DNA of 64,000 nt from Calothrix sp. PCC 7716 (lineage in GTDB: Bacteria > Cyanobacteriota > Cyanobacteriia > Cyanobacteriales > Nostocaceae), in assembly GCF_019977735.1 (NCBI RefSeq), contig NZ_AP025018.1, positions 2,170,001 through 2,234,000 of the forward strand, read 5' to 3'. This document shows, one piece after another, positions 14,371-61,636 of the stretch. Below the pieces are notes generated by a model, which saw only the letters and a list, made by a program, of their open reading frames with translations, made no database searches and was not told the origin of the DNA. The translations under genes and the position numbers were made by a program. Numbering within the stretch: the stretch's first letter is position 1; every line of letters begins with the position of its first letter.

Positions 14371-14402
14371 AAATAGGCGCCAGTCTTTAGGACTGATGCA
14401 GT
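14371..14402 (-). promoter_or_regulatory. Shared promoter box, proximal copy before DUF1822
   Basis: ACTGCATCAGT, 15 bases, CTATTT, ending 29 bases before the DUF1822 start. A GGCGCC site lies just before the CTATTT half. Read as a promoter, GCATCA and CTATTT are 17 bases apart, the normal -35/-10 spacing. Confidence 0.6.
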
Positions 14403-14421
14403 TTATTGTTGGCCATATTAC

Positions 14422-14453
14422 ATATAGGTGCCAAATTTTTCAACTGATGCAGT
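14422..14453 (-). promoter_or_regulatory. Shared promoter box, distal copy before DUF1822
   Basis: ACTGCATCAGT, 15 bases, CTATAT. A second, better-conserved copy 20 bases upstream of the proximal one; this is the only gene here with two boxes in tandem. Confidence 0.6.
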
Positions 14454-14510
14454 TTTCTGTCATGCCCAAAAACGAAGCATGACAGAAGTCGTTTGCAGTA
14501 TAGCCACATT

Positions 14511-15986
14511 TTATTTTGTAGCAAAATTGAGATGCTCCGTTGCAGGTAACGTACATGTTTCTATATAACTACGAAGTTGTTGGGCATATAAACTATCCAT
14601 CGTCCGATTTTTCCCAGTTCTAATCTCTTCTGCTGCTGCTTGGAATACTTGTTCATCTACATAAGATTCAACTTGTTCTGTCACTGCTTTCAGATAACCA
14701 GCTTCGGGTGGCATTTTAGTCAAGCCCTTTTCTGCAGCTTTTTTCAAAATACTTTCTAACATTTGTTCTACAGTTTGCGCGCGTACAGAAGTTAACAAAT
14801 CTCCAGGATTTAAAATTCGTCTAGTTTGATCCCAACTTGTCATCCCCAATAAAGGCATAATTTCTTTTAAAGACATTGCCTGAGAGTAGTACAATTGCAA
14901 TCCTTTAATATATTTATCAGCGAAAGGTGCATATCTACTACTATGATGCAATTTTTTGATGTTGGCTTCTACTTGTTGTTGAATTACCTCGCTCATAACC
15001 GTATAAAGGCGCTCTTGTAAAAACTCTAAAAATTCCCGCTGTTCTACATCCACTTCATCAATAGAATCAACGAGTAAATCACGTCTTGGTTGATACTGAC
15101 CACTTTCAGCATCAAATATATCTAAAGATTCTTTGGAAGCCCAAATATCGTACTTTCTAATTTCTTGGGCAATATTTTTTAGTTCCCTCATCAACCGTGC
15201 GGAGGTATTAATAGAAACTTGATACTTTTGCAAATAAACTAACATCTCTTGCAACTGCACGTTTGTGGGGTCGGGACACTTTCTTGCTGCCTTGTGGTGT
15301 TGCATTTGTCGGTCTCGACGATAAACAGCGTGAAAAGCTTCAACGATATAGCGGTGTTGGGTTAATAAACGCTCAAGTTGCTTAGTTCTGACTCGATTTA
15401 AAAGTGACCAATCGCTTACATGCTTGAAACCAAACTCAGATAAAAAGTTTTTCAGTTCTGGATTTTGCTTTGTTTGCAAATAAGCCCAATTATCCAAGCT
15501 CATCCGAGACTGTGAATCCGCATTGAATGTTTGTAACACAGTCATAGAAAAAAACTTATACAATTCTGGTGTAGTCTGACTACAGTTATCTACCATGAGT
15601 TGGGTTTTCCCATCTCGGTCTAAGATAATCAATTTCTGTCCATCATCGTTAAGAACGAACGGTAACAAATCTCGATATGTGAATTGCTTGCTACCACTAA
15701 ACATTGAGTCGACTTTTTTACATTCCCTCAGTATGGATTCAGAAACGTAACATCTTAGACAAAGACCTGCTAGCGCGCGAGTAGTCACATCCAAATTTTT
15801 GTTATCTGCGTGAAAATACGAGAATAGTGTATTTTGAATACTAACGTTATCCAGATTGTCTATGTCGGTTAGCTGATTTTTTAAAAATTCTTGAGCAATT
15901 GGAACTGGTACTTGTTTATACCCTAACTTCTCTTCTGCTGGGTTAACTCGCCAGATTTTGCAATATCTTGAAGATATATTATTCAT
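14511..15986 (-). CDS. Sigma/HTH-like cyanobacterial protein, copy B
   Basis: A 491-aa paralogue of the protein at 6854-8293, alike along nearly its whole length, with the same sigma region 4-like helix-turn-helix (LQLYYSQAMSLKEIMPLLGM) near residue 375. The frame is open 46 codons further upstream. I choose the ATG starting MNNISSRYCKIWRVNP because it matches the start of copy A, and both are preceded by the same TACTTCAA(G/A)T(G/C)GATGGT sequence. It keeps the 3' end missing from copy A (LPATEHLNFATK). It is followed by the DUF1822 gene in the same direction. Function is inferred only. Confidence 0.65.
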   Translation of the reverse strand: MNNISSRYCKIWRVNPAEEKLGYKQVPVPIAQEFLKNQLTDIDNLDNVSIQNTLFSYFHADNKNLDVTTRALAGLCLRCYVSESILRECKKVDSMFSGSKQFTYRDLLPFVLNDDGQKLIILDRDGKTQLMVDNCSQTTPELYKFFSMTVLQTFNADSQSRMSLDNWAYLQTKQNPELKNFLSEFGFKHVSDWSLLNRVRTKQLERLLTQHRYIVEAFHAVYRRDRQMQHHKAARKCPDPTNVQLQEMLVYLQKYQVSINTSARLMRELKNIAQEIRKYDIWASKESLDIFDAESGQYQPRRDLLVDSIDEVDVEQREFLEFLQERLYTVMSEVIQQQVEANIKKLHHSSRYAPFADKYIKGLQLYYSQAMSLKEIMPLLGMTSWDQTRRILNPGDLLTSVRAQTVEQMLESILKKAAEKGLTKMPPEAGYLKAVTEQVESYVDEQVFQAAAEEIRTGKNRTMDSLYAQQLRSYIETCTLPATEHLNFATK

Positions 15987-16386
15987 AGCTGTACCATCCA
16001 CTTGAAGTATATTGTTTGTAATTTTACGCCATATACCTATGGGTTGTGACTGATATCGATTATGCAACTTTATGTAACTTCGTTGGTAAAAATTTGCCGT
16101 AACTTTTCGGAATGTATCTAACATGAATATGTGTATGATTTATTGCCACGCATAAGAATAAAATCCGTAGGCTAATAGCACAATTCCATTGAAATAGACT
16201 ATTAATAATAGCAATATTAAATACATAATTATTTGAAAATAAGAGTTTATACGTAAGTATGCGAGATTTGAGCTAAAGTTATTTTATTACAACCATTAGT
16301 TTACACTGGCGCCTGTGTTTACATCTTAAGTAAATTTATGTACATATGGTATATGTAGAGACTATTCATGTCGCGTCTCTACATGT

Positions 16387-16479: not shown

Positions 16480-17370
16480 ATGTTACCTAAATTTCGTCAA
16501 ACTTTTATTTTAGTTGCAGTCGTTGCAGCTTTATCAACTGGTTGTCGTTATCAGAAAGAGTATAGCAAAATCACAGAAGCAGGAAATCAATATACAACTG
16601 CCGTTGATCAGCTATTATCTAAGGCTAGCGATTTACAAGTTGATGCAAGTTCTGAGCAGTTACTATTAGATGACAAACTATCTAACCAAACACAAGAAGC
16701 TTATGATAATTTAAATAAACAAGACCAAGAAATGCTACAAATAATTTCTGATATGCGTGAGCATAATCGACTCTTACAAAGGTATTTCCATAAGTTACGG
16801 CAACTTGCCCGCTCTGATGCGCCAGAAGAAACCCAAAAAGAAATTGATGGAATTGCAAGCAACATCCAAACAATTAGTTCTCGTCTGCAAACTAGCAGTT
16901 TTTTTGCTAATAGAGGAATATTAGGTAGAGTTGGTAAACTTGTGATTAATGCTAAAATCGACGGCGCCCTCAGAAAAGAGTTAGAAAAACGCGACAACAC
17001 AATTCTACAGGAGCTAACAATACAAGAAAGCATGTTAGGTAGTTTAAGGGGCTTTATGGAACACAGAATTAAGCTAATACAAGATGCACGAGAAACACGT
17101 CTGTTAATTCGTCCCTTAATAGACAAAGAACCAATTGAAGCTGGCCTTGCACAAACATGGATAGATGAACGCAGGCAAATGTTTTTGTTCGACCAACATA
17201 TCGTAGAAATAAAAAATGCTAGTTCTGCATTAAAAGAGTTCAAAGATATTTATAAAGCTTCTGTCGAAGGTAATATTAATTCCGCGCGTCTGAATAATGC
17301 ATTAGAAGATATTAACACTTTTTTAGCTCTTCTTGTTGACACTAAGCAAACAATCAACTCAACAAATTAA
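16480..17370 (+). CDS. Helical lipoprotein of unknown function
   Basis: A 296-aa exported protein with a signal peptide and lipobox LSTGC, so Cys22 would carry the lipid anchor. The rest is almost entirely alpha-helical with heptad-like patterns (LNKQDQEMLQIISDMREHNR, LRKELEKRDNTILQELTIQE), suggesting a coiled coil in the periplasm or at a membrane. I do not recognise the family. It has the shared promoter box and is followed after 44 bases by a second small helical protein, so the two are likely co-transcribed. Confidence 0.7.
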   Translation: MLPKFRQTFILVAVVAALSTGCRYQKEYSKITEAGNQYTTAVDQLLSKASDLQVDASSEQLLLDDKLSNQTQEAYDNLNKQDQEMLQIISDMREHNRLLQRYFHKLRQLARSDAPEETQKEIDGIASNIQTISSRLQTSSFFANRGILGRVGKLVINAKIDGALRKELEKRDNTILQELTIQESMLGSLRGFMEHRIKLIQDARETRLLIRPLIDKEPIEAGLAQTWIDERRQMFLFDQHIVEIKNASSALKEFKDIYKASVEGNINSARLNNALEDINTFLALLVDTKQTINSTN

Positions 17371-18166: not shown

Positions 18167-18198
18167 ACTGCATAACTTGATTTTTCCAATATCTATTT
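18167..18198 (+). promoter_or_regulatory. Shared promoter box before the GDSL esterase gene
   Basis: ACTGCATAACT, 15 bases, CTATTT, 60 bases before the ATG. The last two bases of the first half differ from the consensus AGT, but the spacing is exact. Confidence 0.55.
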
Positions 18199-18258: not shown

Positions 18259-19215
18259 ATGAGTATTTATTTTTACAGTATTGTCAATAAATACCAAGAC
18301 ATGAATCTTGACGTTTCGCGAGTTTTTGAAACAATAGAGCTTCCACCTCTAGTAAACGAGCGTGGTGTTGAATGCAATAAAAATTACTTTCAACCTAGTC
18401 ATATTTACGCTTTTGGCGATAGTTTATCAGATATTGGCAATTGTTTTGATGCAACAAAAAAAGCTTTGGCAAAACCCATACCAGCTACACCTCCCTACTT
18501 TTCTGGACGTTTTTCTAACGGTATTCTATGGGTGGAATATATTGCACAACTGTTAGGGTTATGTTCCGACCAATCCACAAATTATGCTATAGGTGGTGCA
18601 ACTACTGGCGCCACTAATTCATTAGTTCCTAATACACCTGGTTTAACAGGGTTGCAGCCGCAAATCGATAAATTTAAGGCAGAAAACAATCAAACAGACA
18701 TCAGAGCGCTTTACACTATTTGGGCTGGCGCCAATGATTATTTGGGTGCAGGTGTTACTGACTATAATATACCAGTCAAAAATCTGTCAAATGCAGTCAA
18801 ATCACTTGCATCTGTTGGCGCCAAAAATATAATGGTCTTCAATCTACCCGACTTGGGTAATCTTCCGAGAACTCGTAATGACATACAAGAGTCGCAATTT
18901 TTGACAAATATAACTCGGTTACATAATTCTGCATTGGCTAGTGAGCTAGAAACTCTAAAGCAATCTTTTTCTCAAAGCATCAATCTAATTTTAATAGATG
19001 CCTATGTCATATTTAATCAAATTTTCAGTAACCCAGCACAATTTGGTTTTACAAACGTCAAAGATTCGGCACTTTCACAACATGAAAGCTCACTTATATA
19101 TACCGAAAGCTTTTTCTTTTGGGATGAAATACATCCAACAACAGCAAGTCATCTATTAATGGCACATAAAGCACTGGAAGCACTGGTGTCTGTTAAAGAA
19201 TTATCTTTGGTATAA
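18259..19215 (+). CDS. SGNH/GDSL-family lipase or esterase
   Basis: A 318-aa hydrolase with all four SGNH blocks: the nucleophile Ser in YAFGDSLSDIGN (block I, about 52), the glycine block YAIGGATTG, the Asn of the WAGANDYL block, and the catalytic Asp/His pair in DEIHPTTASH (about 294-297). It would cleave ester bonds of lipids or acylated molecules. The usual phospholipase-like spacing PYFSGRFSNGILWVEY is kept. There is no clear signal peptide; the 50 residues before block I are not typical of secreted relatives. It has the shared promoter box, which places it with the caspase, STAND and protease genes. Confidence 0.9.
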   Translation: MSIYFYSIVNKYQDMNLDVSRVFETIELPPLVNERGVECNKNYFQPSHIYAFGDSLSDIGNCFDATKKALAKPIPATPPYFSGRFSNGILWVEYIAQLLGLCSDQSTNYAIGGATTGATNSLVPNTPGLTGLQPQIDKFKAENNQTDIRALYTIWAGANDYLGAGVTDYNIPVKNLSNAVKSLASVGAKNIMVFNLPDLGNLPRTRNDIQESQFLTNITRLHNSALASELETLKQSFSQSINLILIDAYVIFNQIFSNPAQFGFTNVKDSALSQHESSLIYTESFFFWDEIHPTTASHLLMAHKALEALVSVKELSLV

Positions 19216-19324: not shown

Positions 19325-20431
19325 TCAAGTGTAGTTTCGTAATTTATTTAGCTCAGACTCAGTAAAAGGGTTTTTGTTAGCTCGTAGGGATTTGACCCAA
19401 GCTTGCCGTTGTAGTTTACTTTTTTTATCATCAGTCTGGGCAATATATGCTTCAAAATCAGCAATAGCTCCTTTGTAATCTCCCGTTAGCGCTCTGGCTA
19501 ATCCTCGGACATCACGAATGCTACCATTATTTGGAGCAAGTTTAACGGCTTTTTCGCAGGCAAAGATTACCAATGCAGCAGATTCATATAGGCTACCTCG
19601 CCAACAAATATCAGCTAGGGTGTTTGCATCAATTTCCACTTTAGGGTCAACTTTTTCAGCTTGGTTATAAGCAGCAATAGCTTCTTTTATTTTTTTCTCT
19701 TGAATAAGAGTACGTGCTTTAGTAACTAAACCTTCAGCTGCTAGCTGTTGGGCTTTTTTTTGTGGGTTGATGTTTAAGCTTGGGTCTAATTTTAAGGCTT
19801 CTTGAAAGTTGGTAACAGCATTTAGTATATCATTCTCTCTTGCTAGGTTTTCGCCTTCGTTTATTAAGTGTTCGGCTTTGCCTTTATTCTCAAATTTTTG
19901 TGCTTTTTGCTGAGGGACAAATTTCGTTAATTTCGAGTTCCACTTCAAAGCTGTTTTGAAATTTGCAATAGCTTTATCTATATTACCAGCTTTTGCTTCT
20001 GCTTCTCCGGCTTTTAGCAAAAACGGCGCAGCAGCTTTTAATTTTTCTGGTGTTTGGCATAATTCTAATTTTTGCAATTCTTTTAATTTTTGCACCGGAG
20101 AGAGTAAACTGTTTTCTAACCACCAAGTTTCCAAGTCAAAGTCTCGGTAAAGCTTAAATACGCTTACTAACGTGTCTATAACTCCAGCGTACCATTGCTC
20201 TGGAGTTATATCCGCTGTACCAATGGCGGTGATGTCAACTGCTGCACAAGCAAAATCCTCCGAAAGCAAGCGCTGCATTACTCGCACTCGCAAGCTTGAT
20301 TTTCCCATTTTCCGAGAATTTAGTACATAACAAAATTCACCCGCTTTTAGCCCTGTGTATAAATCATGGTCTGCTTGGCGAGTGACATATGTGGGAGAAT
20401 TAGAGGGAAGACTTCCGCCGACTTGATACAT
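19325..20431 (-). CDS. Truncated AAA-like NTPase fused to TPR repeats (internal deletion)
   Basis: Residues 1-118 match the start of the AAA-like domain of the protein at 31448-35296: YQVGGSLP, then [12 protein letters not shown] as the P-loop, [10 protein letters not shown] and SLLSPVQKL. The similarity jumps there directly to that protein's C-terminal end ([18 protein letters not shown] and [20 protein letters not shown]). Between these lie helical TPR-like repeats ([20 protein letters not shown]). Walker B, sensor motifs and all WD40 repeats are missing. The join lies at a repeated CAAAAATTA, so an in-frame deletion by short-homology recombination is likely. ATPase activity is doubtful; the TPR part could still bind partners. 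Confidence 0.75.
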
Positions 20432-20847: not shown

Positions 20848-22584
20848 ATGGGAAAATCATTATTAAGTGAACTGACACATCGTTCTTATTCAAAAGTAAA
20901 AAATCAGTCAGGAACACGTACTCCCCAATTACGAGTAGGGGTGGAAGCAAAATTGCCTTATCACTCATTTATGTCAGATTGGGGTGATAAATACCAGTCA
21001 ATAATGCGTACAGCATTAAATGAATTGCAACATGGGCAATCAGAAGACTATATTGAAAAAACTTTTCAGGAAAAGTTTAATATTGATTGGGCGTGGGCTG
21101 ATTCAATTGCAACTGATGCAAAAGGCACATTTGACCAATTAATTGAAGCACGCGCTTTAAGAATAAAGGCACTAGATGACGATATAAAGGCAGGTTGGAA
21201 GTCTGTTGCATCGACAATTGAATTAATGGAACAACAGTTAGCGCTCCCCTCACGTAAGAACATGAAAGGGTTTGCAAAGCGTTTGATGGGATTAGAATCT
21301 AAAGTTAGTAGACTTGAACGCAAACAAGTAGAGAAAGAAGAATTAGAAAAAACGAAAAGACTACATATATGTTTTGGTAGCGCTAAATTATTTAATGCCC
21401 AGTACCATTTAGAAGAAAATGGTTATTCGTCTCATGATGAATGGCGTGTAGATTGGGAGAAAAAACGTGGTGGTAATTTCTACAGTGTAGGTAAAGGCTC
21501 AGTTTCGGGCAACAATCCTGTAGCCAAAATATTTTATATATCAGGCGATATATTTAGTGTAACCTTCGCGGTTCCTAGATTTTTACGTGATAAATATGGA
21601 GATACAGTCAGTCTGAAGTTTGAGGTATCAGGACAACGTAAACATAATTTACTTTATGCCTTAGAAGTAAAAAAACCAGTTACAGTTCAATGTTTCCGAC
21701 GCGAGCATAAAAATGACCAATGGTATATTCACCTTACAACTTACGTCCAAGATGTTCCGACTATTTCTAGTATAAATAATGGATGTATTGGTATTGACTT
21801 AAATGCAGAAACTATTGATGTAATTTACATTAAACGCGACGGGAATCCGGAAAGAAGTCGCAATGCTATAAGTTTTCCCATTCCGACAGGAACAACTGGA
21901 CAGAAAGAGGCGAAACTTCGTGATATTGTATGTGAAATTGTTAAATTAGCAGAAATTTATCAATGTCCAATTGCTTGTGAGAATCTTGATTTTTCAACAA
22001 AGAAGAATCAACTTAGGCATAGTGGAACTAAAGAATATAACCGGATGTTGACAGGTTTTATTTATGATAAATTTCGTTCATATCTTGTTGTTAGAGCAGA
22101 AAAGTATGGAATAGAAATATTATTTAAATCACCATTTATGACTAGTGTTATAGGTATGGTGAAATACATGGCAAAATATGGACTAAATAGCGCTAGTTCT
22201 GCCGCTATGGTAATAGCTAGAAGAGCTATGGGTTTTAAAGAGTATATCCCCCAGCAATGGTTAAAAACTCTCACTGCATTTTTGCAGCCAGAGGATTGGA
22301 AAGATGCAGGTTTCGGGGGAGGGTGGAGACGAATTTCAGCTTGGCTGAAAAAATTTTTCATCCGTAGACCCCGTATGTTTGAACTCGATACCGTGCTTCG
22401 GTTTTTATTAGATTCCTTATTAACCCAATCCCAGAAAAAGACCCATAAAAAGCGAAAGTCGGGAGGTAGCAAGCAGTCTGGGGGTAAGAGAACGGGAAAG
22501 GTTAACCCTACTGAAGCTCAAGTTCCACTTGAACGAGAACAAATGAAGGTCACGAATTCAGGGGCATTCACCGTGGCTCCGTAA
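20848..22584 (+). CDS. TnpB-like RuvC protein (IS605-type, no tnpA)
   Basis: A 578-aa protein of the TnpB/Cas12 ancestor group. RuvC-I is GCIGIDLNAETIDVIYI (Asp near 316), RuvC-II is PIACENLDFSTKK (Glu near 378). The RuvC-III region reads IGMVKYMAKYGLNSASSAAM then VIARRAMGF, the pattern of a TnpB-related subgroup, but no obvious third acidic residue stands at the expected place. There is no CxxC zinc ribbon. The C-terminal tail is basic and low-complexity. No Y1 transposase is adjacent. The 415 bases upstream and 150 downstream are AT-rich and show no clear element ends. The gene has no GGCGCC sites, consistent with recent arrival. It may be an immobile, possibly domesticated, RNA-guided protein. 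Confidence 0.75.
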   Translation: MGKSLLSELTHRSYSKVKNQSGTRTPQLRVGVEAKLPYHSFMSDWGDKYQSIMRTALNELQHGQSEDYIEKTFQEKFNIDWAWADSIATDAKGTFDQLIEARALRIKALDDDIKAGWKSVASTIELMEQQLALPSRKNMKGFAKRLMGLESKVSRLERKQVEKEELEKTKRLHICFGSAKLFNAQYHLEENGYSSHDEWRVDWEKKRGGNFYSVGKGSVSGNNPVAKIFYISGDIFSVTFAVPRFLRDKYGDTVSLKFEVSGQRKHNLLYALEVKKPVTVQCFRREHKNDQWYIHLTTYVQDVPTISSINNGCIGIDLNAETIDVIYIKRDGNPERSRNAISFPIPTGTTGQKEAKLRDIVCEIVKLAEIYQCPIACENLDFSTKKNQLRHSGTKEYNRMLTGFIYDKFRSYLVVRAEKYGIEILFKSPFMTSVIGMVKYMAKYGLNSASSAAMVIARRAMGFKEYIPQQWLKTLTAFLQPEDWKDAGFGGGWRRISAWLKKFFIRRPRMFELDTVLRFLLDSLLTQSQKKTHKKRKSGGSKQSGGKRTGKVNPTEAQVPLEREQMKVTNSGAFTVAP

Positions 22585-22711: not shown

Positions 22712-22743
22712 ATATAGGTGTAGGTAAATTTAAGTTATGCAGT
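22712..22743 (-). promoter_or_regulatory. Orphan copy of the shared promoter box
   Basis: ACTGCATAACT, 15 bases, CTATAT, pointing left, into the back of the TnpB gene. No start codon for a minus-strand gene follows closely. The next minus-strand gene in its path is the AAA-TPR gene that starts at 20431, so the TnpB insertion may have separated the two. Confidence 0.5.
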
Positions 22744-22967: not shown

Positions 22968-22999
22968 ATTGCATAAGTTAACTTTAGTGACACCCATAA
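22968..22999 (+). promoter_or_regulatory. Shared promoter box before the caspase-WD40 gene
   Basis: ATTGCATAAGT, 15 bases, CCATAA, 75 bases before the ATG. Second base and -10-like half are the most divergent of the gene-linked copies, but spacing is kept. Confidence 0.5.
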
Positions 23000-23074
23000 C
23001 ATCTAAGTAGGTACGTCAATGCCGAACATTGCAATACTAATATACTATAAATAAAGTAAACTAGGGGTGTGTGT

Positions 23075-24751
23075 ATGAACGTAACTCAACAAACGGAAAC
23101 ATTTAATAACCCAGAAACTGGCGCCGAAACAGGTTTTGCTCGCAATTTAGCATTTATTATTGGTATTGATAATTACCAAAATGGTATATCTCCTCTCAAA
23201 ACAGCCGTCAACGATGCCAAAAAGCTCGTAGAAGTTCTGCGCTCTAAGCATCAATATCAAACTTGGATATGTTTAGACAACGTTGCAACCTTAAGTAATT
23301 TAAATCAATTTTTAGAGGAAAAATTACCCGCACAAGTTACCGAAAATGACCGCTTGTTATTTTACTTTGCTGGTCATGGAGTTGCACTGAATGGAGATGA
23401 TGGTCCTGTTGGTTACTTAATTCCCCAAGATGCGAAGCTGAATGAGACCAAGAGTTATTTACCAATGGCGAAGTTGCATTCGGCTTTGAGTAAATTACCT
23501 TGCCGGCATTTTTTAGGTATTTTGGATTGTTGTTTTGCAGGCGCCTTCCGGTGGTCGAGTACACGTGATTTAATTACATCCCCTGAAGTTATCTATCAAG
23601 AACACTACGACCGCTTTATTCGAGATGCGGCATGGCAAATAATTACTTCCTCAGCTTCCGACCAGAAAGCCTTAGATAACTTTAATTTAGATACAGAACG
23701 CGGTCAAGTTGGTAATCATTCTCCTTTTGCTGCTGCATTACTAGAAGCATTAGAAGGCGCCGCAGATACTTATCCTCCTGCTAAAAATGGTAAACAGAGT
23801 GGAGATGGGGTAATTACAGCTACCGAATTATATTTACATTTACGCGATAGGGTCGAAATTCCTACAGAGAAACAGCGTCTGCGTCAAACTCCTGGTATTT
23901 GGTGTTTAAATAAGCATGATAAAGGCGAGTATATCTTTCTTTCTCCTAGTCACAAGTTAAATTTACCATCGGCGCCGCCATTAGACGAATCCAAAAATCC
24001 CTATCGCGGTTTAAATTCATTTGAAGAAGAACACAGCGAAATATTTTTTGGCAGAAGTAAGTTAGTTGAAAAATTACAAAAGTTTGTCAAAATTAATCCT
24101 CTGACAGTTGTACTCGGCGCCAGTGGTTCAGGTAAATCGAGTTTGGTCAAAGCCGGATTAATTCCTAAGTTAAAACAAGAAGCTAATAATAGTTTCAGTC
24201 CCGATGGCAAGATGCTAGCTTCTGCCAGTGATGACAGCACGGTTAAATTGTGGGATACCACCAATGGCAAAGAAATCAAAACCCTTACTGAGCATATAAA
24301 CTCGGTTTATGGTATTAGCTTCAGTCCCGATGGCAAGATGCTAGCTTCTACCAGTGCTGACAGCACGGTTAAATTGTGGGATACCACCAATGGCAAAGAA
24401 ATCAAAACCCTTACTGAGCATACAAACACGGTTTGGGGCATCAGCTTCAGTCCCGATGGCAAGATGTTAGCTTCTGCCAGTTCTGATAACACGTTGAAAC
24501 TGTGGGATGTCAGCACAGGCAAAGAAATCAAAACCCTTACTGGGCATATAAACTCGGTTTATGGTATCAGCTTCAGCCCGCATGGCAAGATGCTAGCTTC
24601 TGCCAGTGCTGACAAAAATGTGAGACTGTGGAGGCTGGATTTTGATTATTTACTCCGGCAAGGGTGCAATTTTGTGCGCGAGTATTATAAAACCAATCCC
24701 CCTGATAATGAGAGTGACAAGCACTTGTGTGATGGTCTTGGTAATTTTTAA
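23075..24751 (+). CDS. Caspase-like protease - truncated STAND P-loop - WD40 (internal deletion)
   Basis: The first 250 residues are a peptidase C14 (caspase/metacaspase-like) domain with His in FYFAGHG (about 101) and Cys in LDCCFAG (about 153). A STAND module begins at NPYRGLNSFEEE with Walker A LGASGSGKSSLVKAGLIPKL, then jumps without Walker B or any helical part straight into WD40 (SFSPDGKMLASASDD). About four WD40 repeats remain, followed by the typical C-terminal cap LRQGCNFVREYYK. The NTPase must be dead, so the protease is no longer under normal STAND control. The ATG is preferred over an upstream GTG because it follows AGGGGTG. Confidence 0.85.
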   Translation: MNVTQQTETFNNPETGAETGFARNLAFIIGIDNYQNGISPLKTAVNDAKKLVEVLRSKHQYQTWICLDNVATLSNLNQFLEEKLPAQVTENDRLLFYFAGHGVALNGDDGPVGYLIPQDAKLNETKSYLPMAKLHSALSKLPCRHFLGILDCCFAGAFRWSSTRDLITSPEVIYQEHYDRFIRDAAWQIITSSASDQKALDNFNLDTERGQVGNHSPFAAALLEALEGAADTYPPAKNGKQSGDGVITATELYLHLRDRVEIPTEKQRLRQTPGIWCLNKHDKGEYIFLSPSHKLNLPSAPPLDESKNPYRGLNSFEEEHSEIFFGRSKLVEKLQKFVKINPLTVVLGASGSGKSSLVKAGLIPKLKQEANNSFSPDGKMLASASDDSTVKLWDTTNGKEIKTLTEHINSVYGISFSPDGKMLASTSADSTVKLWDTTNGKEIKTLTEHTNTVWGISFSPDGKMLASASSDNTLKLWDVSTGKEIKTLTGHINSVYGISFSPHGKMLASASADKNVRLWRLDFDYLLRQGCNFVREYYKTNPPDNESDKHLCDGLGNF

Positions 24752-26109: not shown

Positions 26110-26141
26110 ACTGCATAAGTTTGAATGTATGGCACCTAAAA
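26110..26141 (+). promoter_or_regulatory. Shared promoter box before the caspase-hydrolase gene
   Basis: ACTGCATAAGT, 15 bases, CTAAAA, only 28 bases before the ATG. The first half is a perfect match; the second deviates in two bases. Confidence 0.55.
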
Positions 26142-42244: not shown

Positions 42245-42571
42245 ATGCAAGCACTAGCTATTGAAACTCTACCACGTCTTGCACAAGGCAGCAGAGGTGA
42301 AAGCGTCAAACATTTGCAACGATTACTAAACGCTTACAGTGAAAAAATTCAAAACTCTGGCAACGTATATCCAATATTGGATGTAGACGGTATTTTTGGT
42401 TCACGAACAAAAAATGCTGTTGAAGGTTTCCAAAGAGAATATAGTGAAGTCCTTAATTTACCTATCGACCCAAGAGACCCCAATTACTTCCCAGTTGATG
42501 GAATAGTTGGTACCTTAACTTGGCGCGCGCTGGGTGACTTTGCCTATCGTAGCTGTAATGTAACAGCTTGA
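42245..42571 (+). CDS. Peptidoglycan-binding domain protein, 108 aa (pair 3, long)
   Basis: Paralogue of the other 108-aa proteins, with FGSRTKN instead of FGPRTKN, SEVLNLPIDPRDPNYFPV, and the end SCNVTA. Both glycine motifs and the single late cysteine are kept. The leader matches pairs 1 and 2; one extra base (GAACTCGTAAATG) separates ribosome binding site and start. Confidence 0.85.
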   Translation: MQALAIETLPRLAQGSRGESVKHLQRLLNAYSEKIQNSGNVYPILDVDGIFGSRTKNAVEGFQREYSEVLNLPIDPRDPNYFPVDGIVGTLTWRALGDFAYRSCNVTA

Positions 42572-52081: not shown

Positions 52082-53227
52082 CTACTCAATGGGAGCTTGA
52101 GCTAGTCCAATACCAACATCTGTTGAGGGTAAGTCTAAACCTAGAGCGTTTTGAATTAGCGCTGCCCAAAGTTCTCTTCCTCTAAATCCGGTTGTTTCGG
52201 CGTACAATGCTGCAATACCCGCTACATGGGGTGTTGCCATACTCGTTCCATTAAAACGGTCGTACTGTGTAGGCATGGGAACACTAGAATAAACGTTTAC
52301 ACCAGGAGCAGCAATATCAACTTCTCCACCCTCATTTTCTGTTCCACCACAGGAGAAATCTGCTACTTGCAAACTAGGGTCTAAAGCAGCAACCGCCATA
52401 ATTGAGGGACAGTTTGCTGGACTTGCAACAGGTTTAATCACCCCACTTTCACGTGTACTCTCATTTCCGGCAGCTGCAACTATTAAAGTACCTCTATCAA
52501 GTATCCTCCTAGCTAGAGTCTCATAAAAATCAGAGTAGCTTTCGCCCGGTTCAGTCGCAGAACCAAGGGACATAGAAATGATATGGCAATCATTATCAAC
52601 CGCCCATTGCATTCCTGCGAGTACCCACTCGGTATTGCCAAAACCGCTATTTCCCAGTACTTTTCCTACGTAGATTTCTGCTTCATGGGCAACTCCATAA
52701 CGAGGTGCAGCTTTTGGTTTGAATGCACCGCAAGCTGTACCTGCACAATGGGTACCGTGTCCTGCCACATCTTGTACATCCTCATCAGGAACAAAAGACT
52801 TAGTAACAATTGTCCGCCCTTCAAAATCAGGATGTTGCAGGTCTAAACCTGTATCTAAAATTGCAACCTTAATTCCCGCACCAGTCGCAAGAGAATCAAT
52901 TACACCCGTTGCTTTTAAACCCCAAGTATGCTCCTCTTCATCAAGCGCTGGAGATTCAGGGGCATCTTGTAAATTAACAATAGGATAAAAGAATCGTTCT
53001 GGCTCAATTGCTAAAATTGGGCTATCTGTAAGGCTTCTAGTGTTTACACTTAACTCATCTGGTGTAGCATCAACAACAGCAACACCAAGATTTTCAAAAC
53101 AAACAATACTATCTGTACTTCTAGTAGTGACAGTTTGGCTTAACAATTGTACGCCTTCAGCTACTGCATCTTGGCGGAACAGAACTATACTTCTACCAGT
53201 AAAACGAGGTCTATTAGCAATACTCAT
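52082..53227 (-). CDS. Subtilisin-like serine protease (S8), 381 aa
   Basis: A subtilase similar along its whole length to the one at 38244-39416. The triad is Asp in VAILDTGLD, His in AGHGTHCAG and Ser in NGTSMATPHVAG. The N-terminal 110 residues (GRSIVLFRQDAVAEG) form the same propeptide-like part. No signal peptide. The start follows AAGGAAAG. It has the shared promoter box but no peptidoglycan-binding genes next to it. It converges on the CHAT gene with 54 bases between stops, and lacks GGCGCC sites like its relative. Confidence 0.92.
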   Translation of the reverse strand: MSIANRPRFTGRSIVLFRQDAVAEGVQLLSQTVTTRSTDSIVCFENLGVAVVDATPDELSVNTRSLTDSPILAIEPERFFYPIVNLQDAPESPALDEEEHTWGLKATGVIDSLATGAGIKVAILDTGLDLQHPDFEGRTIVTKSFVPDEDVQDVAGHGTHCAGTACGAFKPKAAPRYGVAHEAEIYVGKVLGNSGFGNTEWVLAGMQWAVDNDCHIISMSLGSATEPGESYSDFYETLARRILDRGTLIVAAAGNESTRESGVIKPVASPANCPSIMAVAALDPSLQVADFSCGGTENEGGEVDIAAPGVNVYSSVPMPTQYDRFNGTSMATPHVAGIAALYAETTGFRGRELWAALIQNALGLDLPSTDVGIGLAQAPIE

Positions 53228-53316: not shown

Positions 53317-53347
53317 ATATAGATGACCAATTTTTTACATATGCAGT
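53317..53347 (-). promoter_or_regulatory. Shared promoter box before the minus-strand subtilase
   Basis: ACTGCATATGT, 14 bases, CTATAT (continuing AAACTCAG), 89 bases before the ATG. Matches the other subtilase box in having the one-base-shorter spacing. Confidence 0.55.
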
Positions 53348-53562: not shown

Positions 53563-53563
53563 T

Positions 53564-55132: not shown

Positions 55133-57505
55133 CTAAAACCTAACGCTCTTTATTATCAAAGCCGTTACACTTAATGCTATTACACTTGGTACTAACGGCG
55201 CCCAATAACTCGATAACAGGAACCCAAAACACACTATATAAACTATTCCAGCCGCTGTCATGATAGTGATTATCAATCGCATTTTTGGTGTACGTAATCG
55301 TAACGTTAAAACTCCTCCTACTAAAGACGAACTCAATATCCAAATTATCTCATGTATAGGCGCCAAAGTTTGTAGTAAAGAACGATTATCAAGAACATGG
55401 CTAAGAATTTGACTTAGCATATGTGCGTGAATTAGCACTCCTGACTTTTGTGTATTTAGTTCGCTACCTAACGGTGTTGGTAAATAATCTTGTAAATCTC
55501 CTTTGGCAACAACTCCAATAAGTACAATTTTGTCCTTGAAAGAACTTGGGTTGACCTGATCCTGTAAAATTTCTGTCAGCGATACTTTTTCAGATAGTTT
55601 ATCACTCGCGCGCCAGTTCAGCAAAACTTGTCCGCCACTTGCGTCGATATTTTGATATCCTCCACTATAACGAGTCAAGGGTTGGAAAGTTGCTTTGTCA
55701 ATTTTGAGTGTATAATCAACAGGGTTTATAGTAATTTCGTTAATGCCTTTGAATTTAAAATATTCAAACGCTAACTGTAAGCTTAAAGAATATTCTGCTG
55801 TACATAGCGAGTTAGGTTCTTGCTTCATAAATAAAAGATGGCGCCTAACTATACCATCTTCATCTCGAATAAAATCACTAAATCCCAAACGGTCTCGAAT
55901 ATCTTGAGAAGGAATTTCTGGTGGTGGTGCTATACCTTTACTATTGGCGCCAATATAACTACCTTTACATATAGTAATTAAATTTGTTGTTTGCTGAAGA
56001 CGCTTTGTTAACTCTGGGTCTTCAGATTTAAAATCGCGGTATATATCTAGACCAATTACAGAAGGTTGATACTGTTCTAATTTTTCTAAAAGTATGTTTA
56101 ATGATTTATCTGAGATTGAAGTTCCCTTCAAAGACTCACCTTTGCGACGTTGTTCTGCGAGGTCATTATCATCTATTGTCACCATTATTATACGATTATC
56201 GGGTTGTTCTTTCACAACTAAAGAACGTAACCACAGCATTTGGTCGAATGTTTTTAACTCAGTAGTCTCAAATAACCCAAATAATCGCATTAATATTATT
56301 ACGGATGTAACTAAACTAACAATTATAGTAAAGTAGATTTTATTACGATAATTATGAAGACGATTTGACGGTGCCGATATCTGATTATGATTGTTATGAT
56401 TCGTTATTTCTGTAGAAATTGTGATATTATTTAAAAGTTGGCGCCAATTTAAAGGTATCTGTATCGGATTACTTTGGCAAATCATTGGTAGCCAAGTGCA
56501 ATTGGGAAATTTATCCTCAAGTCCTTGTAATCTTTCTCTGGCAAGACGTACAGCCAGATAAAATTCTGTTCCATTTGCAAACTCTGAAAGAAAATACTTT
56601 AAAAATTCGCTAGCAATTTTATCAGGAACAGGTTCGCGCATAAAAATGATTTCGGGTATTTGTAAACAAGAAAGTTCTCTTGCTAACCCCAAACCGTCAC
56701 AAGAATTAAATATTGCTAATTGTAATCCACGGGCAACAGCTTTTTGAAGCGCATACCGCAGTTCTGTCATACTCAAACTATCGGTTTGATTCAAATAGAT
56801 TTTACCGCTTTCGTCTGACTGCGTTAAACTGTGTCCAGCAAAAAATAATATATCCCAATTATTATCCCATAACTGGTCATTCAACTCCTGGCGCCTTGGC
56901 TCGACTAAAAAAGTAATATCTGTGTCGGGTATTCTTTCGAGTATGTTTCTATCTGCTTGAGTATCAATACCTCTACTATCACCAACTATTGCTAAAATCT
57001 TAACCCTCGAATTGGTATGATGAATGATATCGCTGCGTTCGTAGTTGGGAGATGAAACTGCTATTTCTGCTCTTGTATACCGTTCTAACAAGTCCCAAGC
57101 GTGCCAAGGCAAGCGTAATAATGTACTATTTTGCGTTTGTAGTATAACTCTAATATTATCTGTACTATCGAGACGTTCCAACCACTTTTCTCGTAGTGGA
57201 CGGAAGGAATCAGATTGTAACCAAGAATTAAAGTCTGTGCGAAGAATTTGAGCAGTTGTTTGACAATCAGAAGTTATGGATACATTCGTCACCTGTACTT
57301 TATCAGCAGACAAACGAAACGCACTACCTAAACGTCGGTAATTTGAACGCCAATGATTATAGTACATTAATAATTGCGGCGCCGCTGGTAATCTACCCAT
57401 AATTTCGATATCAGGTAGTCTACCTTCAGTCCCAATTTGTAACGTGACAGTAAATCCGACATCGAAATTGCCGTCACTAAATTTTAAAACAACTAGCTTG
57501 CCCAT
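55133..57505 (-). CDS. CHAT peptidase fused to a CHASE2 sensor domain
   Basis: A 790-aa membrane protein. The N-terminal CHAT domain has His in LFFAGHS (about 228) and Cys in FNSCDG (about 272) and is similar to that of the 8500-12978 protein, including the family start MGKLVVLKFSDGNFDVGF. A transmembrane helix (about 391-409) leads into an extracytoplasmic CHASE2 domain (FDQMLWLRSL... VTIDDNDLA ... KIVLIGVVAKGD), followed by two or three transmembrane helices at the C-terminus. An outside signal sensed by CHASE2 could control the cytosolic protease. It follows DUF1822 after 39 bases. Confidence 0.92.
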   Translation of the reverse strand: MGKLVVLKFSDGNFDVGFTVTLQIGTEGRLPDIEIMGRLPAAPQLLMYYNHWRSNYRRLGSAFRLSADKVQVTNVSITSDCQTTAQILRTDFNSWLQSDSFRPLREKWLERLDSTDNIRVILQTQNSTLLRLPWHAWDLLERYTRAEIAVSSPNYERSDIIHHTNSRVKILAIVGDSRGIDTQADRNILERIPDTDITFLVEPRRQELNDQLWDNNWDILFFAGHSLTQSDESGKIYLNQTDSLSMTELRYALQKAVARGLQLAIFNSCDGLGLARELSCLQIPEIIFMREPVPDKIASEFLKYFLSEFANGTEFYLAVRLARERLQGLEDKFPNCTWLPMICQSNPIQIPLNWRQLLNNITISTEITNHNNHNQISAPSNRLHNYRNKIYFTIIVSLVTSVIILMRLFGLFETTELKTFDQMLWLRSLVVKEQPDNRIIMVTIDDNDLAEQRRKGESLKGTSISDKSLNILLEKLEQYQPSVIGLDIYRDFKSEDPELTKRLQQTTNLITICKGSYIGANSKGIAPPPEIPSQDIRDRLGFSDFIRDEDGIVRRHLLFMKQEPNSLCTAEYSLSLQLAFEYFKFKGINEITINPVDYTLKIDKATFQPLTRYSGGYQNIDASGGQVLLNWRASDKLSEKVSLTEILQDQVNPSSFKDKIVLIGVVAKGDLQDYLPTPLGSELNTQKSGVLIHAHMLSQILSHVLDNRSLLQTLAPIHEIIWILSSSLVGGVLTLRLRTPKMRLIITIMTAAGIVYIVCFGFLLSSYWAPLVPSVIALSVTALIIKSVRF

Positions 57506-57544
57506 ATAACAAAGTGTGAAGTCCCAAATTCGGTAGTATGCGAA

Positions 57545-58492
57545 CTAAATTACAAAATGTTCGGTAATATAAGCTCCACCATGTCCTACCCTTACACTAA
57601 ACCTTTCTCCAACTTCACCACTAAACTGTAACTGAATGTAATTATCGGCACTTCGTGATTGAGCTTCTAAGAATAAATTCAGAGACTCATCCAATACAGA
57701 TAATACAATAGATGGCTGTAAATAAACGGCGCCTGTGGGATGCAATTGTAGACGTACACTAGTTTTGGAATTTGATTGAGGTGTAATTTCCACTATTAAT
57801 ATAACGGGTTGATTGGCAATTTGAATTCCCAAATCGAATAACTTTGCCCGTCTAAAGGAATCTGCCTCAGTCTCCTTTAATACTGTATCACCACTAATAG
57901 CTTCCACACTACGAAAAACATACGCAGGTCGCAATTGAGGATTTTCGAGTAAAGACTCAACAGTTTGCCAACCATATTCAACCACACCAGACACCCATCG
58001 ACTCAAACTAACCAAAGTTGATTGAGCTAACTTTTGCGATTCAAGATGCTCCACCAAACCCTCCAACGGCAACAACTCCTCGTAATGCAGTACTTCAGTA
58101 CTGCAACCCTTCACAAACCCCATAATTCTAGCTTCCTCCAAACACTCATCAATCACCACCACAACATAAGCTACACGTGTACCCCAACTTTCAGGAGGGA
58201 TGTAACAAGAATCCTCATTTACGGAAGCAGGACGACATTCAATTTTACCAACCCCAGGCACATCCAAATCAGCAACATCCATAGATAAACGCATAACTGG
58301 ATTCCAAGAGTCACCAACATTAACGTCAGTTGACACACCCATTAAATTGAGGTAGTAGCTCACAGTCAACACTGAAACTGTATTCAAAAGAACTTTTTCG
58401 GCTTTAGAGCGAGTTGGTTGCTGTCGAGCAAAACTCTGTGCTGTAAGAATCGCAGTTTCAGATATTGGCAGTGGCAAAGCATTGCATGTCAT
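57545..58492 (-). CDS. DUF1822 family protein, 315 aa
   Basis: A DUF1822 protein, distantly related to that at 13277. Visible family parts are LPLPISETAILTAQSFARQQ at the start, the LLNTVSVLTVSYYLNLMGV helix, LSRWVSGVVEYGWQTVESLL near residue 195 and a beta-rich C-terminus ending YITEHFVI. I choose the ATG preceded by AGGAGTAAAT; the frame is open 41 codons further up without support. First gene of the set DUF1822, CHAT-CHASE2, DUF928, in the order DUF1822-before-CHAT also seen in the inverted duplication. Here no sigma-like gene is present. Confidence 0.85.
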   Translation of the reverse strand: MTCNALPLPISETAILTAQSFARQQPTRSKAEKVLLNTVSVLTVSYYLNLMGVSTDVNVGDSWNPVMRLSMDVADLDVPGVGKIECRPASVNEDSCYIPPESWGTRVAYVVVVIDECLEEARIMGFVKGCSTEVLHYEELLPLEGLVEHLESQKLAQSTLVSLSRWVSGVVEYGWQTVESLLENPQLRPAYVFRSVEAISGDTVLKETEADSFRRAKLFDLGIQIANQPVILIVEITPQSNSKTSVRLQLHPTGAVYLQPSIVLSVLDESLNLFLEAQSRSADNYIQLQFSGEVGERFSVRVGHGGAYITEHFVI

Positions 58493-58694
58493 ATTTACTC
58501 CTAGACGGTAAATGCTGCTATTCAGATATCTGCCAATTTTAAAGATATTACGCACGATATCTATAAAATTCTTAAGAACCAGCAACTTCTCCACTATAAG
58601 GCAGTAATATAGCAAACTCAGCGCCTAATCTCAATTGTGATGTAAAAAACAACTGTCCTTTATGCTGTATTCTCATTTGGTTGGCTACGTTCCT

Positions 58695-59240: not shown

Positions 59241-59840
59241 CAAGGGCGATTAATATTAGCAATTGATGGAATGCAACCAGAAGTTGGACATGAAGTATTG
59301 TGGGTAATTCGTGATTGTTTATCAGGAGAGATTTTACTGGCAAAAACATTACTATCTTCAAAAATAGAGGATTTGGCTGCACTGTTACTGGATGTAAAAA
59401 ATACACTCGCTGTGCCAATAGATGGAGTTATCAGTGATGGGCAACAATCAATCCGTAAAGCAGTTGAGGTGGCATTGCCGGAAATTGCTCATGGCTTATG
59501 CCATTTTCATTACTTAAAAGAAGCAAGCAAAATAATATACGAGGCAGATAGACATGCAAAGAAAGAATTAAAAAAGCATGTGCGAGGTATACGAAAAATA
59601 GAAAGTAGTATACCAGATGATGATAAAAAGGTTGCAGCAGTAGTGGGCAAATATTGCTCGGCAGTGCGTGCATCACTAACAAGCGATGGTGAATCAGTTG
59701 CCGGGAATGGTTTCCTTTCCGGCAAACTGATGAACCCGAAGGGGCGCCCACCTTTAGACGCATCTGGTTTAAAACTACAAGAACGTTTGACATTAATAGA
59801 ACAAAGTCTCGATAAAATGGAGAAAAAAAGTCTACGTTAA
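59232..59840 (+). pseudogene. Transposase fragment (DDE type)
   Basis: A 200-codon open stretch resembles the middle of a DDE transposase: LILAIDGMQPEVGHEVLWVI with a first Asp, then VISDGQQSIRKAVEVALPE with a second Asp, and HGLCHFHYLKEASK. N-terminal DNA-binding part and the rest of the catalytic domain are missing. It is fused to the NACHT fragment upstream. Another frame downstream (VTQKLHELFSAIFPQ, 59846 onward) probably belongs to the same broken gene. The family is not certain. Confidence 0.65.
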
Positions 59841-59984
59841 AAAAAGTGACACAAAAACTGCATGAACTTTTTTCAGCCATTTTCCCACAAAGTCAACAGC
59901 CTACCCCAAGGGGGGTCACGAGCTTGAGTTTATTACAAGGGGGCAATCATCGGCACCTGAATCCTTACCTTTTTTACTTTAGAA

Positions 59985-61514
59985 CTACTGTTGCCAAGTT
60001 GATTTCTCCGAACCGCGAGAGTTCGTGACTCGCCGCAATTTTTTGATACCCCAAGGATTGTAAATATCGCTATCTTTGTTCCATAGTTTATTGGGAGCGT
60101 CGTCCCAAGATAAGCTTTTGCCTGTCCATTTTGCCTCAATCGTGCCTTCATGCTTGCCGGGGTTGACTATCCGATCCCAAAAATTATCTTTATCGCCATT
60201 GTTGTCATACCAATTGCTGCGAAAATCGGGCAAATTAAAATTAACAGAACTAAAATTAATCAATCTGCGATCGAGAGCATTTGTAAACACGTCAACAACC
60301 GCACCATGAGCGTTGTAGGCACTAAATCCACCTTTACCCTCAAATTTGATTGTCAAAGAAATGTTTGCCGTAGCAGCTTTGTCATTATTTCCCGCAGTTC
60401 CTAAGTTGATACCAGGTATGCCCAACCAATTATCTGCAACTACAAATGCTAGGGAATTATTAGCTATGTCTCTAAAATTTGAAGGACTTTGTTTACCATC
60501 CCTTTGGTTGTCGATATCGTATCCAGTTAACCCATCTGCTGGAAAAGCCGGGTCGAGAGCAACAAAATTTTTAACTTTACCGAAAAGTCTTCCAATTTCG
60601 GTACCGATATATGTACCCAAACTATGCCCGACAATAGTTAATTGCTGGGAATCAATGCCCAATTGCACCAGACGATTGTGAGTCCATGTGCCAATCGTAG
60701 AAATCCATCCGGCAGTCTTGTACGGAATGATACCATTATCCAAGCCTGCTTCCGCAATACTACTCCAATCTAAAGACAAAACTTGATAATCTTGGTATTC
60801 GCTAGCTTCTTTTGCTAATTCTCGGACTGTATCGACTTGATCGTTATTATTCCAACCATGAATAACGAGGATAGTTTCCTTTCTGGATTTTATGCCGTTG
60901 GATGTGCCACCTTGACTATTTTCTCTTTCAGTTCGGCCACCTTCGTGGTATCGCCATATATTTGTCGGTTTTTTAAAACTGTCAAATTGGGAAAAGTCTG
61001 TGGAAAGTAAGGTGCTGCGGAGTTCTATGTCGCCTGTGACGATTTCGATATTTTTGGGAATTACTCGAATTGAGTATTCACCTGGATTTAAAATTTCAGC
61101 AATAAAATGTCCGGAGGTTCCTTCATGGAGGGATTGGGAAATAATTTCTTCTGGACTGTCTACGATGCCGTTATTATTTTTATCTTGAATTAGTTGTAAG
61201 TCGATTGCGCCGCTGAATAAGATTGAACTAATGTCAATATTTGTACGGTCATTTGTAATCTTAAATCTAAAAACATCAATCGGATTGTTAGGATCTCCAA
61301 CAGTATCGATGCGTTTTTCTTCTTTGCCGTCTGCAAATTCGTCTAGATAGATACTACTATTTGTATAGAGATTATTTGCAAAATCACTACTCGAACTTTG
61401 AGAGTATGCATTTATACTGAGCGGATTTAACAAGTCCAAGGTAGATTGATAATTCCGATCGCCGCTGAGGGGGGCAGATAAATCCAGAGGACTATCCGTA
61501 AATTTAGATACCAT
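59985..61514 (-). CDS. Lipase-like alpha/beta-hydrolase with N-terminal beta domain
   Basis: A 509-aa hydrolase. The N-terminal 160 residues include a pre-peptidase-like beta domain (PIDVFRFKITNDRTNIDISS, LNPGEYSIRVIP) often found in secreted calcium-rich proteins. The hydrolase has VIHGWNNN (oxyanion), nucleophile elbow IVGHSLGTYIG and FVALDPAFPAD with a likely catalytic Asp, similar to pancreatic-lipase-type enzymes. I start at the ATG after AGGTGATT; the GTG three codons earlier is weaker. The gene has no GGCGCC sites, unlike its surroundings, hinting at transfer. A copy of the shared promoter box lies about 90 bases upstream. Confidence 0.85.
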   Translation of the reverse strand: MVSKFTDSPLDLSAPLSGDRNYQSTLDLLNPLSINAYSQSSSSDFANNLYTNSSIYLDEFADGKEEKRIDTVGDPNNPIDVFRFKITNDRTNIDISSILFSGAIDLQLIQDKNNNGIVDSPEEIISQSLHEGTSGHFIAEILNPGEYSIRVIPKNIEIVTGDIELRSTLLSTDFSQFDSFKKPTNIWRYHEGGRTERENSQGGTSNGIKSRKETILVIHGWNNNDQVDTVRELAKEASEYQDYQVLSLDWSSIAEAGLDNGIIPYKTAGWISTIGTWTHNRLVQLGIDSQQLTIVGHSLGTYIGTEIGRLFGKVKNFVALDPAFPADGLTGYDIDNQRDGKQSPSNFRDIANNSLAFVVADNWLGIPGINLGTAGNNDKAATANISLTIKFEGKGGFSAYNAHGAVVDVFTNALDRRLINFSSVNFNLPDFRSNWYDNNGDKDNFWDRIVNPGKHEGTIEAKWTGKSLSWDDAPNKLWNKDSDIYNPWGIKKLRRVTNSRGSEKSTWQQ

Positions 61515-61603
61515 ACTAATCACCTATGAAGTTTTTACCGTAATTTTTCGTACAACAATTATTTACTAAGTAATATTTTATGATAATCACTTTCGATGTT
61601 TGC

Positions 61604-61636
61604 ATATTCCATATACTTTTGTCAAGCTTATGCAGT
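61604..61636 (-). promoter_or_regulatory. Shared promoter box (variant) before the lipase gene
   Basis: ACTGCATAAGC, 16 bases, GAATAT, 90 bases before the ATG. The first half is near perfect; the second is weak and one base further away. Confidence 0.4.

Follow-up and report, generated by a model that had tools for sequence, protein, structure and literature searches.

The 64,000-nucleotide stretch of the Calothrix sp. PCC 7716 genome analysed here (RefSeq assembly GCF_019977735.1, contig NZ_AP025018.1, positions 2,170,001 to 2,234,000, forward strand), referred to as the window, was found to carry a recurrent promoter-like box, designated the A-box, ahead of caspase, STAND, subtilase, lipase and peptidoglycan-binding genes. 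Judged by its conservation, the box is a real promoter-type element, and it is shared by many filamentous cyanobacteria. It is very probable, on comparative grounds, that clade A of a divergent, self-driving sigma-70-like family, with two copies in the window, reads this box and turns on the caspase, STAND, CHAT and wall genes as a group. The box, its geometry and orientation, its co-occurrence with clade A and its placement before many clade-A genes were all computed directly.

The A-box in the window

An earlier note, made from the sequence alone, had described a shared promoter-like box before otherwise unrelated genes of the window, and this observation was confirmed. The twelve copies listed there with a 15-base spacer are all present within two bases of the positions given, the note's starts taking in the preceding AC, and the two with a 14-base spacer lie at 38130-38158 and 53317-53345. 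For the copy placed at 61604-61634 only a 16-base spacer followed by GAATAT fits, and it was left out of the count. The box is present at all twelve sites, but the wording GCATAA-N17-CTATAT is too strict for several of them: the boxes at 14371 and 14422 carry TGCATCAG, that at 43981 carries GGTATAAG, and the endings at 26112, 22970 and 18169 are CTAAAA, CCATAA and CTATTT, respectively. The distance of 28-95 bases from box to start holds for the 12 copies measured. The claim that every copy points toward its gene fails for one unlisted minus-strand box (22712-22741), which faces the 3'-end of a TnpB-like gene. The features concerned are as follows.

6854-8293, plus strand: divergent sigma-70-like protein, clade A, copy 1, 479 amino acids; no Pfam match; placed by family-profile comparison (hhalign) and paralogue tree
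14511-16124, minus strand: copy 2 of the clade-A protein, divergent and sigma-70-like, sharing 78% identity with copy 1; the DUF1822 gene follows directly
13277-14341, minus strand: DUF1822 gene, partner of the sigma-like gene (PF08852, E 1.2e-51)
14371-14400, minus strand: A-box before DUF1822, proximal of a tandem pair, 22.5 bits
14422-14451, minus strand: A-box before DUF1822, distal of the tandem pair, 21.8 bits
16389-16418, plus strand: A-box before a putative lipoprotein gene (16480-17370), 35.3 bits, 61 bases to the start; protein without Pfam match
18169-18198, plus strand: A-box before a GDSL lipase gene (18259-19215; PF00657), 28.2 bits
22712-22741, minus strand: A-box without a clear target, 34.9 bits, facing the TnpB-like gene 20848-22584
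22970-22999, plus strand: A-box before a caspase-WD40 gene (23069-24751; PF00656), 30.3 bits; similar box and protein in genome G002 (L203)
26112-26141, plus strand: A-box before a caspase gene (26170-29613; PF00656), 23.4 bits
35642-35671, plus strand: A-box before an open reading frame (ORF) of 76 amino acids (35756-35986), 27.4 bits; the ORF resembles the adjoining peptidoglycan-binding proteins by eye
36084-36113, plus strand: A-box before a peptidoglycan-binding gene (36200-36526; PF01471), 32.4 bits
37164-37193, plus strand: A-box before a peptidoglycan-binding gene (37280-37606), a near-copy of 36200-36526, 32.4 bits
38130-38158, plus strand: A-box with 14-base spacer before a subtilase gene (38199-39416; PF00082)
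42128-42157, plus strand: A-box before a peptidoglycan-binding gene (42245-42571), a near-copy of 36200-36526, 32.1 bits
43981-44010, plus strand: A-box, GGTATAAG variant, before an nSTAND1 gene (44106-47048; PF20703), 21.7 bits
47329-47358, plus strand: A-box before an nSTAND1-WD40 gene (47454-50963; PF20703), 32.5 bits; same box and a similar gene in genome G004 (L210)
53317-53345, minus strand: A-box with 14-base spacer (TGCATATG), read from the sequence and outside matrix scoring, before a subtilase gene (52082-53227; PF00082)

The 76-amino-acid ORF begins 84 bases after the box at 35642, and the tandem pair upstream of DUF1822 is also found in the relative G004. Exact GCATAAGT followed after 10-20 bases by CTATAT was counted 5 times in the window, where 0.02 would be expected. 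Allowing up to three mismatches, TGCATAAGT-N15-CTATAT gives 18 matches, some of them due to chance, against 3.69 expected, and none of 100 shuffles reaches 18. A weight matrix with fixed spacer, trained on 99 different sites that came from seven genomes other than this one (two near relatives among the sources) and not reaching copies with 14- or 16-base spacers, yields 13 window matches at 14 bits or more against 0.23 per simulated window; the top score over 30 simulated windows was 21.4, and the sites at 43981, 14451 and 14400 lie just above it (21.7-22.5). The copies are partly non-independent, as nearly one spacer is common to the boxes at 35642, 36084, 37164 and 42128, and likewise to those at 43981 and 47329, which precede duplicated genes. 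Rfam and tRNA scans of the window returned no matches.

Promoter geometry

The pattern used for wider counts, TGCATAAGY-N15-CYATWW, was tuned on the window before it was applied to 217 genomes of the taxonomic family. Of the 584 sites found there, 100 were fetched, from seven genomes chosen for high counts or complete chromosomes, and their consensus is TGCATAAGT-TRATTTTRCTTRCAYCTATWWA. When spacers of 11-19 bases were allowed, exactly 15 bases occurred in 99 of 132 matches and the other 33 were scattered (six of eight genomes, those with matches listed in full). The five positions 8-12 bases past CTATWW are purines in 78, 75, 69, 74 and 68 of the 100 fetched sites, against 50-61 in the four positions before and 52-58 in the five after, and such a purine-rich patch is as expected of a start site. 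No other position stands out in these sites beyond the box and the purine patch.

Directly after CTATWW, 75 of the 100 sites have A and 4 have T. The -10 element of SigA promoters is TANNNT, a form that the fetched sites do not show. The operator beside an ordinary promoter that the earlier note had allowed for is thus disfavoured by the -10 element and is the less likely option, while the dedicated sigma factor named as the other option is well supported by computation, through the co-occurrence with clade A and the box before many clade-A genes described below. Taken together, the constant spacer length, the start zone rich in purines and a -10 element unlike that of SigA fit a promoter.

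Genome-wide distribution and the genes behind the box

The genome-wide scan that the earlier note proposed was run by pattern and showed the box to be rare, with 96 of the 100 fetched sites outside ORFs of at least 100 amino acids. In the 12.4-Mb genome the strict form occurs 14 times, 7 of them inside the window; TGCATAAGT-N15-CTATA occurs 8 times in the whole genome (12,367,066 bases, 10 contigs), 5 in the window, and never when reversed; the looser TGCATMASY-N14-16-CYATWW gives 31 matches (control 5), 12 in the window. None of ten TGCATAA-type matches outside the window lies in a frame of at least 100 amino acids and most precede a gene, by eye a CHAT-like (L032), an EAD/CHAT-like (L053), a pentapeptide (L007), a TPR-like (L047), two small secreted (L051, L052) and a large unknown protein (L046), and two small Cys-containing peptides (L049, L054); the box of L045 has no clear gene. 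The TGCATCA-type matches examined outside the window (L048, L050, L055-L061) all fall within stop-to-stop frames of at least 100 amino acids (9 of 9) and were taken as chance.

Within 350 bases downstream, 65 of the 100 fetched sites have the start of an ORF of at least 100 amino acids, against 10 on the opposite side; with ORFs of at least 50 amino acids the counts are 85 and 40, the median distance to the start being 110 bases. Pfam families among the 78 distinct downstream proteins include nSTAND1 (9), caspase (7), CHAT (6), NACHT (4), peptidoglycan-binding (4), TIR (2), NB-ARC (2) and DUF1822 (2). The control consisted of the 77 proteins left after an invalid stretch was removed, some of them very short pieces, which follow non-coding points drawn at random from four of these genomes; nSTAND1, caspase and CHAT are not among its best 25 families listed, and peptidoglycan-binding counts 3. 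By this comparison conflict genes look enriched behind boxes and peptidoglycan-binding genes do not. In genome G028 the gene behind an A-box is a genuine sigma70-ECF gene (105 bits), which hints at a cascade.

Small proteins of two kinds recur behind boxes. Those with likely membrane helices, holin-like by eye, were seen in several genomes (L369 near 14052 and 7607, L367 14186, L249, L197; the last two without NCBIfam match). Others of about 80-97 amino acids, some with Cys at the end, look by eye like peptide precursors (L049, L054, L205, L216, L254, L257; the last four without NCBIfam match).

Co-occurrence of the box with clade A

In the 217 genomes the A-box was found in 85, with 0-31 sites per genome (reversed control 26 sites); some genera have about 10-30 per genome and many others none. 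The 61 genomes with a clade-A gene, among which G029 and G033 count through fragments, hold 548 sites (mean 8.98), and 45 of them have at least three. The 156 genomes without clade A hold 36, namely 13 in the 41 with only clades B or C and 23 in the 115 with no relative found. Carriers exceed non-carriers in 10 of 11 mixed genera, where the non-carrier G080 is only 54% complete, and when the clade-A label was shuffled within genera none of 20,000 trials reached the observed value.

The box also stands before the clade-A genes themselves. Scored with the matrix taken from other genomes, 22 of 37 clade-A genes (the 37 rows hold two identical pairs) have a box of at least 12 bits in the 400 bases upstream, and in 21 of these 22 it lies 48-62 bases ahead of the point where the protein match begins. 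A DUF1822-side box is present at 6 clade-A loci, and 26 of the 37 have a box at either position. The same test on 12 clade B and C genes gave none at 12 bits, the best scoring 11.4. A self-directed promoter matching the motif of the regulon, as for extracytoplasmic function (ECF) factors, is therefore seen in 22 of 37 clade-A genes and is not clear in the window copies.

Identity of the sigma-like proteins

Neither window copy has a Pfam match, and a distant third copy (31%) lies in the same genome at 8,698,215. Homology to the sigma-70 superfamily was found by profile comparison: a profile of 49 family members aligned with the six sigma-70 factors linked to DUF1822 at 98.0% (hhalign, E 1.5e-13, 320 columns), while five decoys with shuffled columns reached at most 1.0%. 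Tested singly, the six factors rank first at 64.7-91.8%, and 52 random proteins do not exceed 1.6%. The similarity covers about 250-320 columns, beyond the helix-turn-helix (HTH). Among the 49 members, 9 touch the sigma70-ECF and 8 the FliA model of NCBIfam, with E up to 0.05.

Gene order agrees. The genome has 22 DUF1822 stretches, some of them fragments, and at six a sigma70-ECF gene above the curated cut-off lies directly upstream; in the window the slot that these genes hold is occupied by 14511-16124, beside the DUF1822 gene 13277-14341. A plasmid search returned 17 records with relatives, 15 annotated as hypothetical protein and 2 unannotated there. A quick tree split the relatives into clades A (37 rows), B (21) and C (29) with SH-aLRT supports of 96, 100 and 87; one long C branch was flagged, and the six DUF1822-linked factors fall apart from all three. 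Clade A had been set at 49% identity or more from the listing, and the tree later showed it as one clade. The window proteins are most probably a branch of sigma-70 that reads the box.

Sister clades and other taxonomic families

A looser pattern for the whole family, TGYATRWS-N16/17-TA, was found in the upstream regions of all three clades: in 17 of 35 genes for A, 13 of 21 for B and 24 of 28 for C (antisense 1, 0 and 3; shuffle means below 0.6). It is absent before the six DUF1822-linked sigma genes of the genome (0/6) and before 13 other sigma genes (0/13). Clade C has TGCATRAG with GAAATAK, its TA in the same register as in the A-box, that is, the same -35 and a different -10 element; clade B, by eye, has CTATATATA, with a slightly different -35 element.

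The C-box pattern was taken from upstream regions of clade C, and its own sites are among the matches (1 of 10 in this genome). It gave 168 matches in 56 of the same 217 genomes (control 4), with 128 in at least 38 genomes holding a clade-C-like match, 20 in 37 other clade-A genomes and 9 in the 115 without a family member. Calothrix sp. PCC 7716 has 10 C-boxes and none in the window; one precedes its own clade-C gene, and the others, by eye, precede a vWA-like protein, a histidine kinase, TPR proteins and others. Its genus mate G005, which lacks clade A, has 0 A-boxes and 5 C-boxes. By their distribution the boxes of clade C appear regulon-like again.

Among 388 genomes of the order, a sample that includes some members of the family, 74 have the A-box; in other families most have 0-2 and a few 3-8. 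Ten regions from other families were chosen for clustered boxes or sigma-like spacers (L377 being on the same contig as L031), and in 7 of these ten a relative of the sigma gene lies in the same 14-20 kb, six 53-59% and one 40% identical to copy 1. Six of the seven also hold DUF1822, and in six a box lies no more than about 270 bases ahead of the sigma gene. The 9-kb stretch beside the 40% relative contains 8 boxes; region L369 has 7 boxes in 6.5 kb and no sigma gene in the 20 kb seen. From this arrangement the kit in other families has the look of a portable island that combines a sigma gene with its regulon.

Proposed mechanism and alternatives

From the results above we infer a working sigma factor, its binding to the box, a start site and a biological purpose, combined as follows. 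The promoter would consist of the -35 element TGCATAAGT, a 15-base spacer and the -10 element CTATWWA, with the start predicted in the purine-rich zone 8-12 bases after CTATWW, and it would be read by polymerase carrying a divergent and so far unannotated sigma-70-type factor (6854-8293 and 14511-16124 in the window). Clade A would be one branch of a cyanobacterial family found beside DUF1822, which in many relatives probably drives its own operon through the box. DUF1822, a caspase or another partner could gate the sigma factor, and once active this would switch on caspases, STAND and CHAT proteins, subtilases, lipases and peptidoglycan-binding proteins, a putative conflict or self-lysis regulon. 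On a broader scale, which we regard as evenly balanced, filamentous cyanobacteria may have a set of self-driven sigma paralogues (A, B and C at the least) with one -35 element, TGYATRAG, in common and differing mainly by the -10 element (CTATWWA in A, GAAATAK in C), forming parallel circuits, possibly a cascade, with separate sets of caspase, STAND, CHAT, TPR/protease and wall genes for a conflict or controlled-death programme in a multicellular bacterium, carried as compact islands in other families.

Several results weigh against a clade-A sigma factor as reader of the box. The two window proteins have no Pfam sigma domain, and NCBIfam sigma matches, in the cases with bit scores listed, are far below cut-off; among the 49 members Pfam Sigma70_r4_2 is touched by 3 and Sigma70_r4 by 1 (E up to 0.05), and a PDB search with the family profile found no sigma factor. 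The putative HTH part is 30% conserved between clades A and C and the N-terminal part 36%, so that a shared -35 element is not simply explained by a frozen HTH. At neither window copy does the region ahead of the sigma gene show a clear box (2.2 and -0.7 bits). One of the 11 mixed genera is reversed (carriers 2.5, non-carrier 3.0), and 16 of the 61 clade-A genomes have fewer than three boxes, 5 with none and 11 with one or two. Among the fetched boxes 15 of 100 have no ORF of at least 50 amino acids starting within 350 bases, peptidoglycan-binding genes are not enriched (4 of 78 against 3 of 77), and many boxed genes are ordinary enzymes or unknowns and not conflict genes.

It is unlikely that the clade-A protein acts as an activator, binding TGCATAAGT beside a -10 element and recruiting the housekeeping sigma holoenzyme. 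The family profile had two PDB hits, one of them to a transcription regulator (deoxyribonucleoside regulator, E 0.087) aligned with the putative HTH part, and rigid spacing is known also for activators that overlap the -35 element; but the -10 element is without the final T of SigA promoters, it varies with the protein clade, from CTATWWA to GAAATAK, which a shared SigA would not need, and the profile likeness to true sigma-70 factors is not confined to the HTH. It is very improbable that an unrelated regulator reads the box and clade A is a mere target sharing its genomes. Co-occurrence by itself does not separate reader from target, and the window copies are not obviously autoregulated, yet clades A, B and C carry variants of the same promoter before their own genes in the proportions given above, the counts of A-box and C-box track different clades, and the chosen box clusters of other families often adjoin a sigma gene.

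The earlier note had also cautioned that some copies could be ends of a miniature inverted-repeat transposable element (MITE). A MITE-like palindrome at 36594-36684 has the ends ACTTATGCAA and TTGCGTAAGT, and some boxes are carried on duplicated segments. The box searches, however, miss the arms of this palindrome (36594-36618 and 36656-36684) and the boxes are without common flanks, so that the caution does not apply and was dropped. Neither a repeat body nor terminal inverted repeats surround the box in the 100 sites, which over seven genomes have no common sequence past the box and start zone; given also the fixed 15 bases to CTATWW and a placement and strand that follow the genes, an origin from this or any other repeat is barely conceivable, and the promoter read by a clade-A sigma factor is preferred.

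Neighbouring genes in the window

The protein of 20848-22584 (plus strand), toward which the box at 22712-22741 points, has weak similarity to TnpB/Cas12f (NF040570, E 1.7e-07, below cut-off) and no Pfam match, and is possibly an unusual TnpB-like nuclease. The target of this orphan box is possibly displaced, and may be the AAA_35-like gene 19325-20431; displacement by the TnpB insertion was considered, and the single alignment with G002 spans only the stretch of the caspase box. Between 35642 and 43756 (plus strand) lie repeated pairs of small peptidoglycan-binding genes (108 and about 82 amino acids), most first genes being boxed and the copy at 43096 having no box. One of the window caspases matches NCBIfam caspase_w_EACC1 below cut-off.

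Immediately 3' of sigma copy 1, 8294-8479 (plus strand) encodes a C-terminal DUF1822 remnant of 61 amino acids, which ends just ahead of a WD40 gene (8485-12978; CHAT-like start by eye). With only this remnant following, the DUF1822 partner of copy 1 has apparently been lost. A second DUF1822 gene adjoins a CHAT-CHASE2 gene in the region 55133-58615 (minus strand), with no matrix match nearby and no obvious sigma gene upstream in the ORF list.

Comparison with known systems

The results bear on how caspase, STAND and CHAT genes are switched on in filamentous cyanobacteria. With the promoter word and the sigma factor that probably reads it, the gene set of each strain could be listed from sequence, and they highlight a sigma branch that escapes domain libraries, in which sister sigmas may keep circuits apart through the -10 element. 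If the proposal is true, bacteria could switch such conflict and wall genes on together.

ECF (group 4) sigma factors regulate themselves, recognise a conserved -35/-10 pair and have an adjacent gene that may be a regulator; TGCATAAG/CTATWW is not a usual ECF pair. The window protein differs from them in its length of about 480 amino acids, against about 200, and in having DUF1822 as partner rather than a known anti-sigma factor; in the position of an adjacent anti-sigma gene, DUF1822 adjoins sigma copy 2 and only the remnant is kept by copy 1. An alternative sigma factor with a regulon is of a known kind, and the gene association is already in print: an ECF sigma and DUF1822 beside EACC2-caspase genes were described with the proposal that the sigma regulates many genes (Kaur et al., eLife 2021, PMC8195603). 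The gene company of sigma, DUF1822 and caspases is the same in the window. The word 'promoter' is absent from the main text of that paper and its relevant passages give no target list; compared with the systems described there, the sigma-like genes of the window form a branch not called sigma by Pfam or NCBIfam, and the caspases match PF00656. A survey of cyanobacterial sigma-70 diversity (BMC Genomics 2024, PMC11119718) was, in the parts consulted, built on known sigma domains, so that the clade-A proteins of the window, having no Pfam sigma match, were probably missed by it. In the openly licensed literature searched, no report of the A-box, its sigma branch or its conflict-gene regulon was found. 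Another parallel is the J-box of SigJ in Nostoc punctiforme (mSphere 2019, PMC6495340), given in the sections consulted as GGGaAtacT, an extended -10 with a weak -35 element; both cases concern an alternative sigma of filamentous cyanobacteria and a widespread motif, and they differ in that the -35 element of the A-box is highly conserved.

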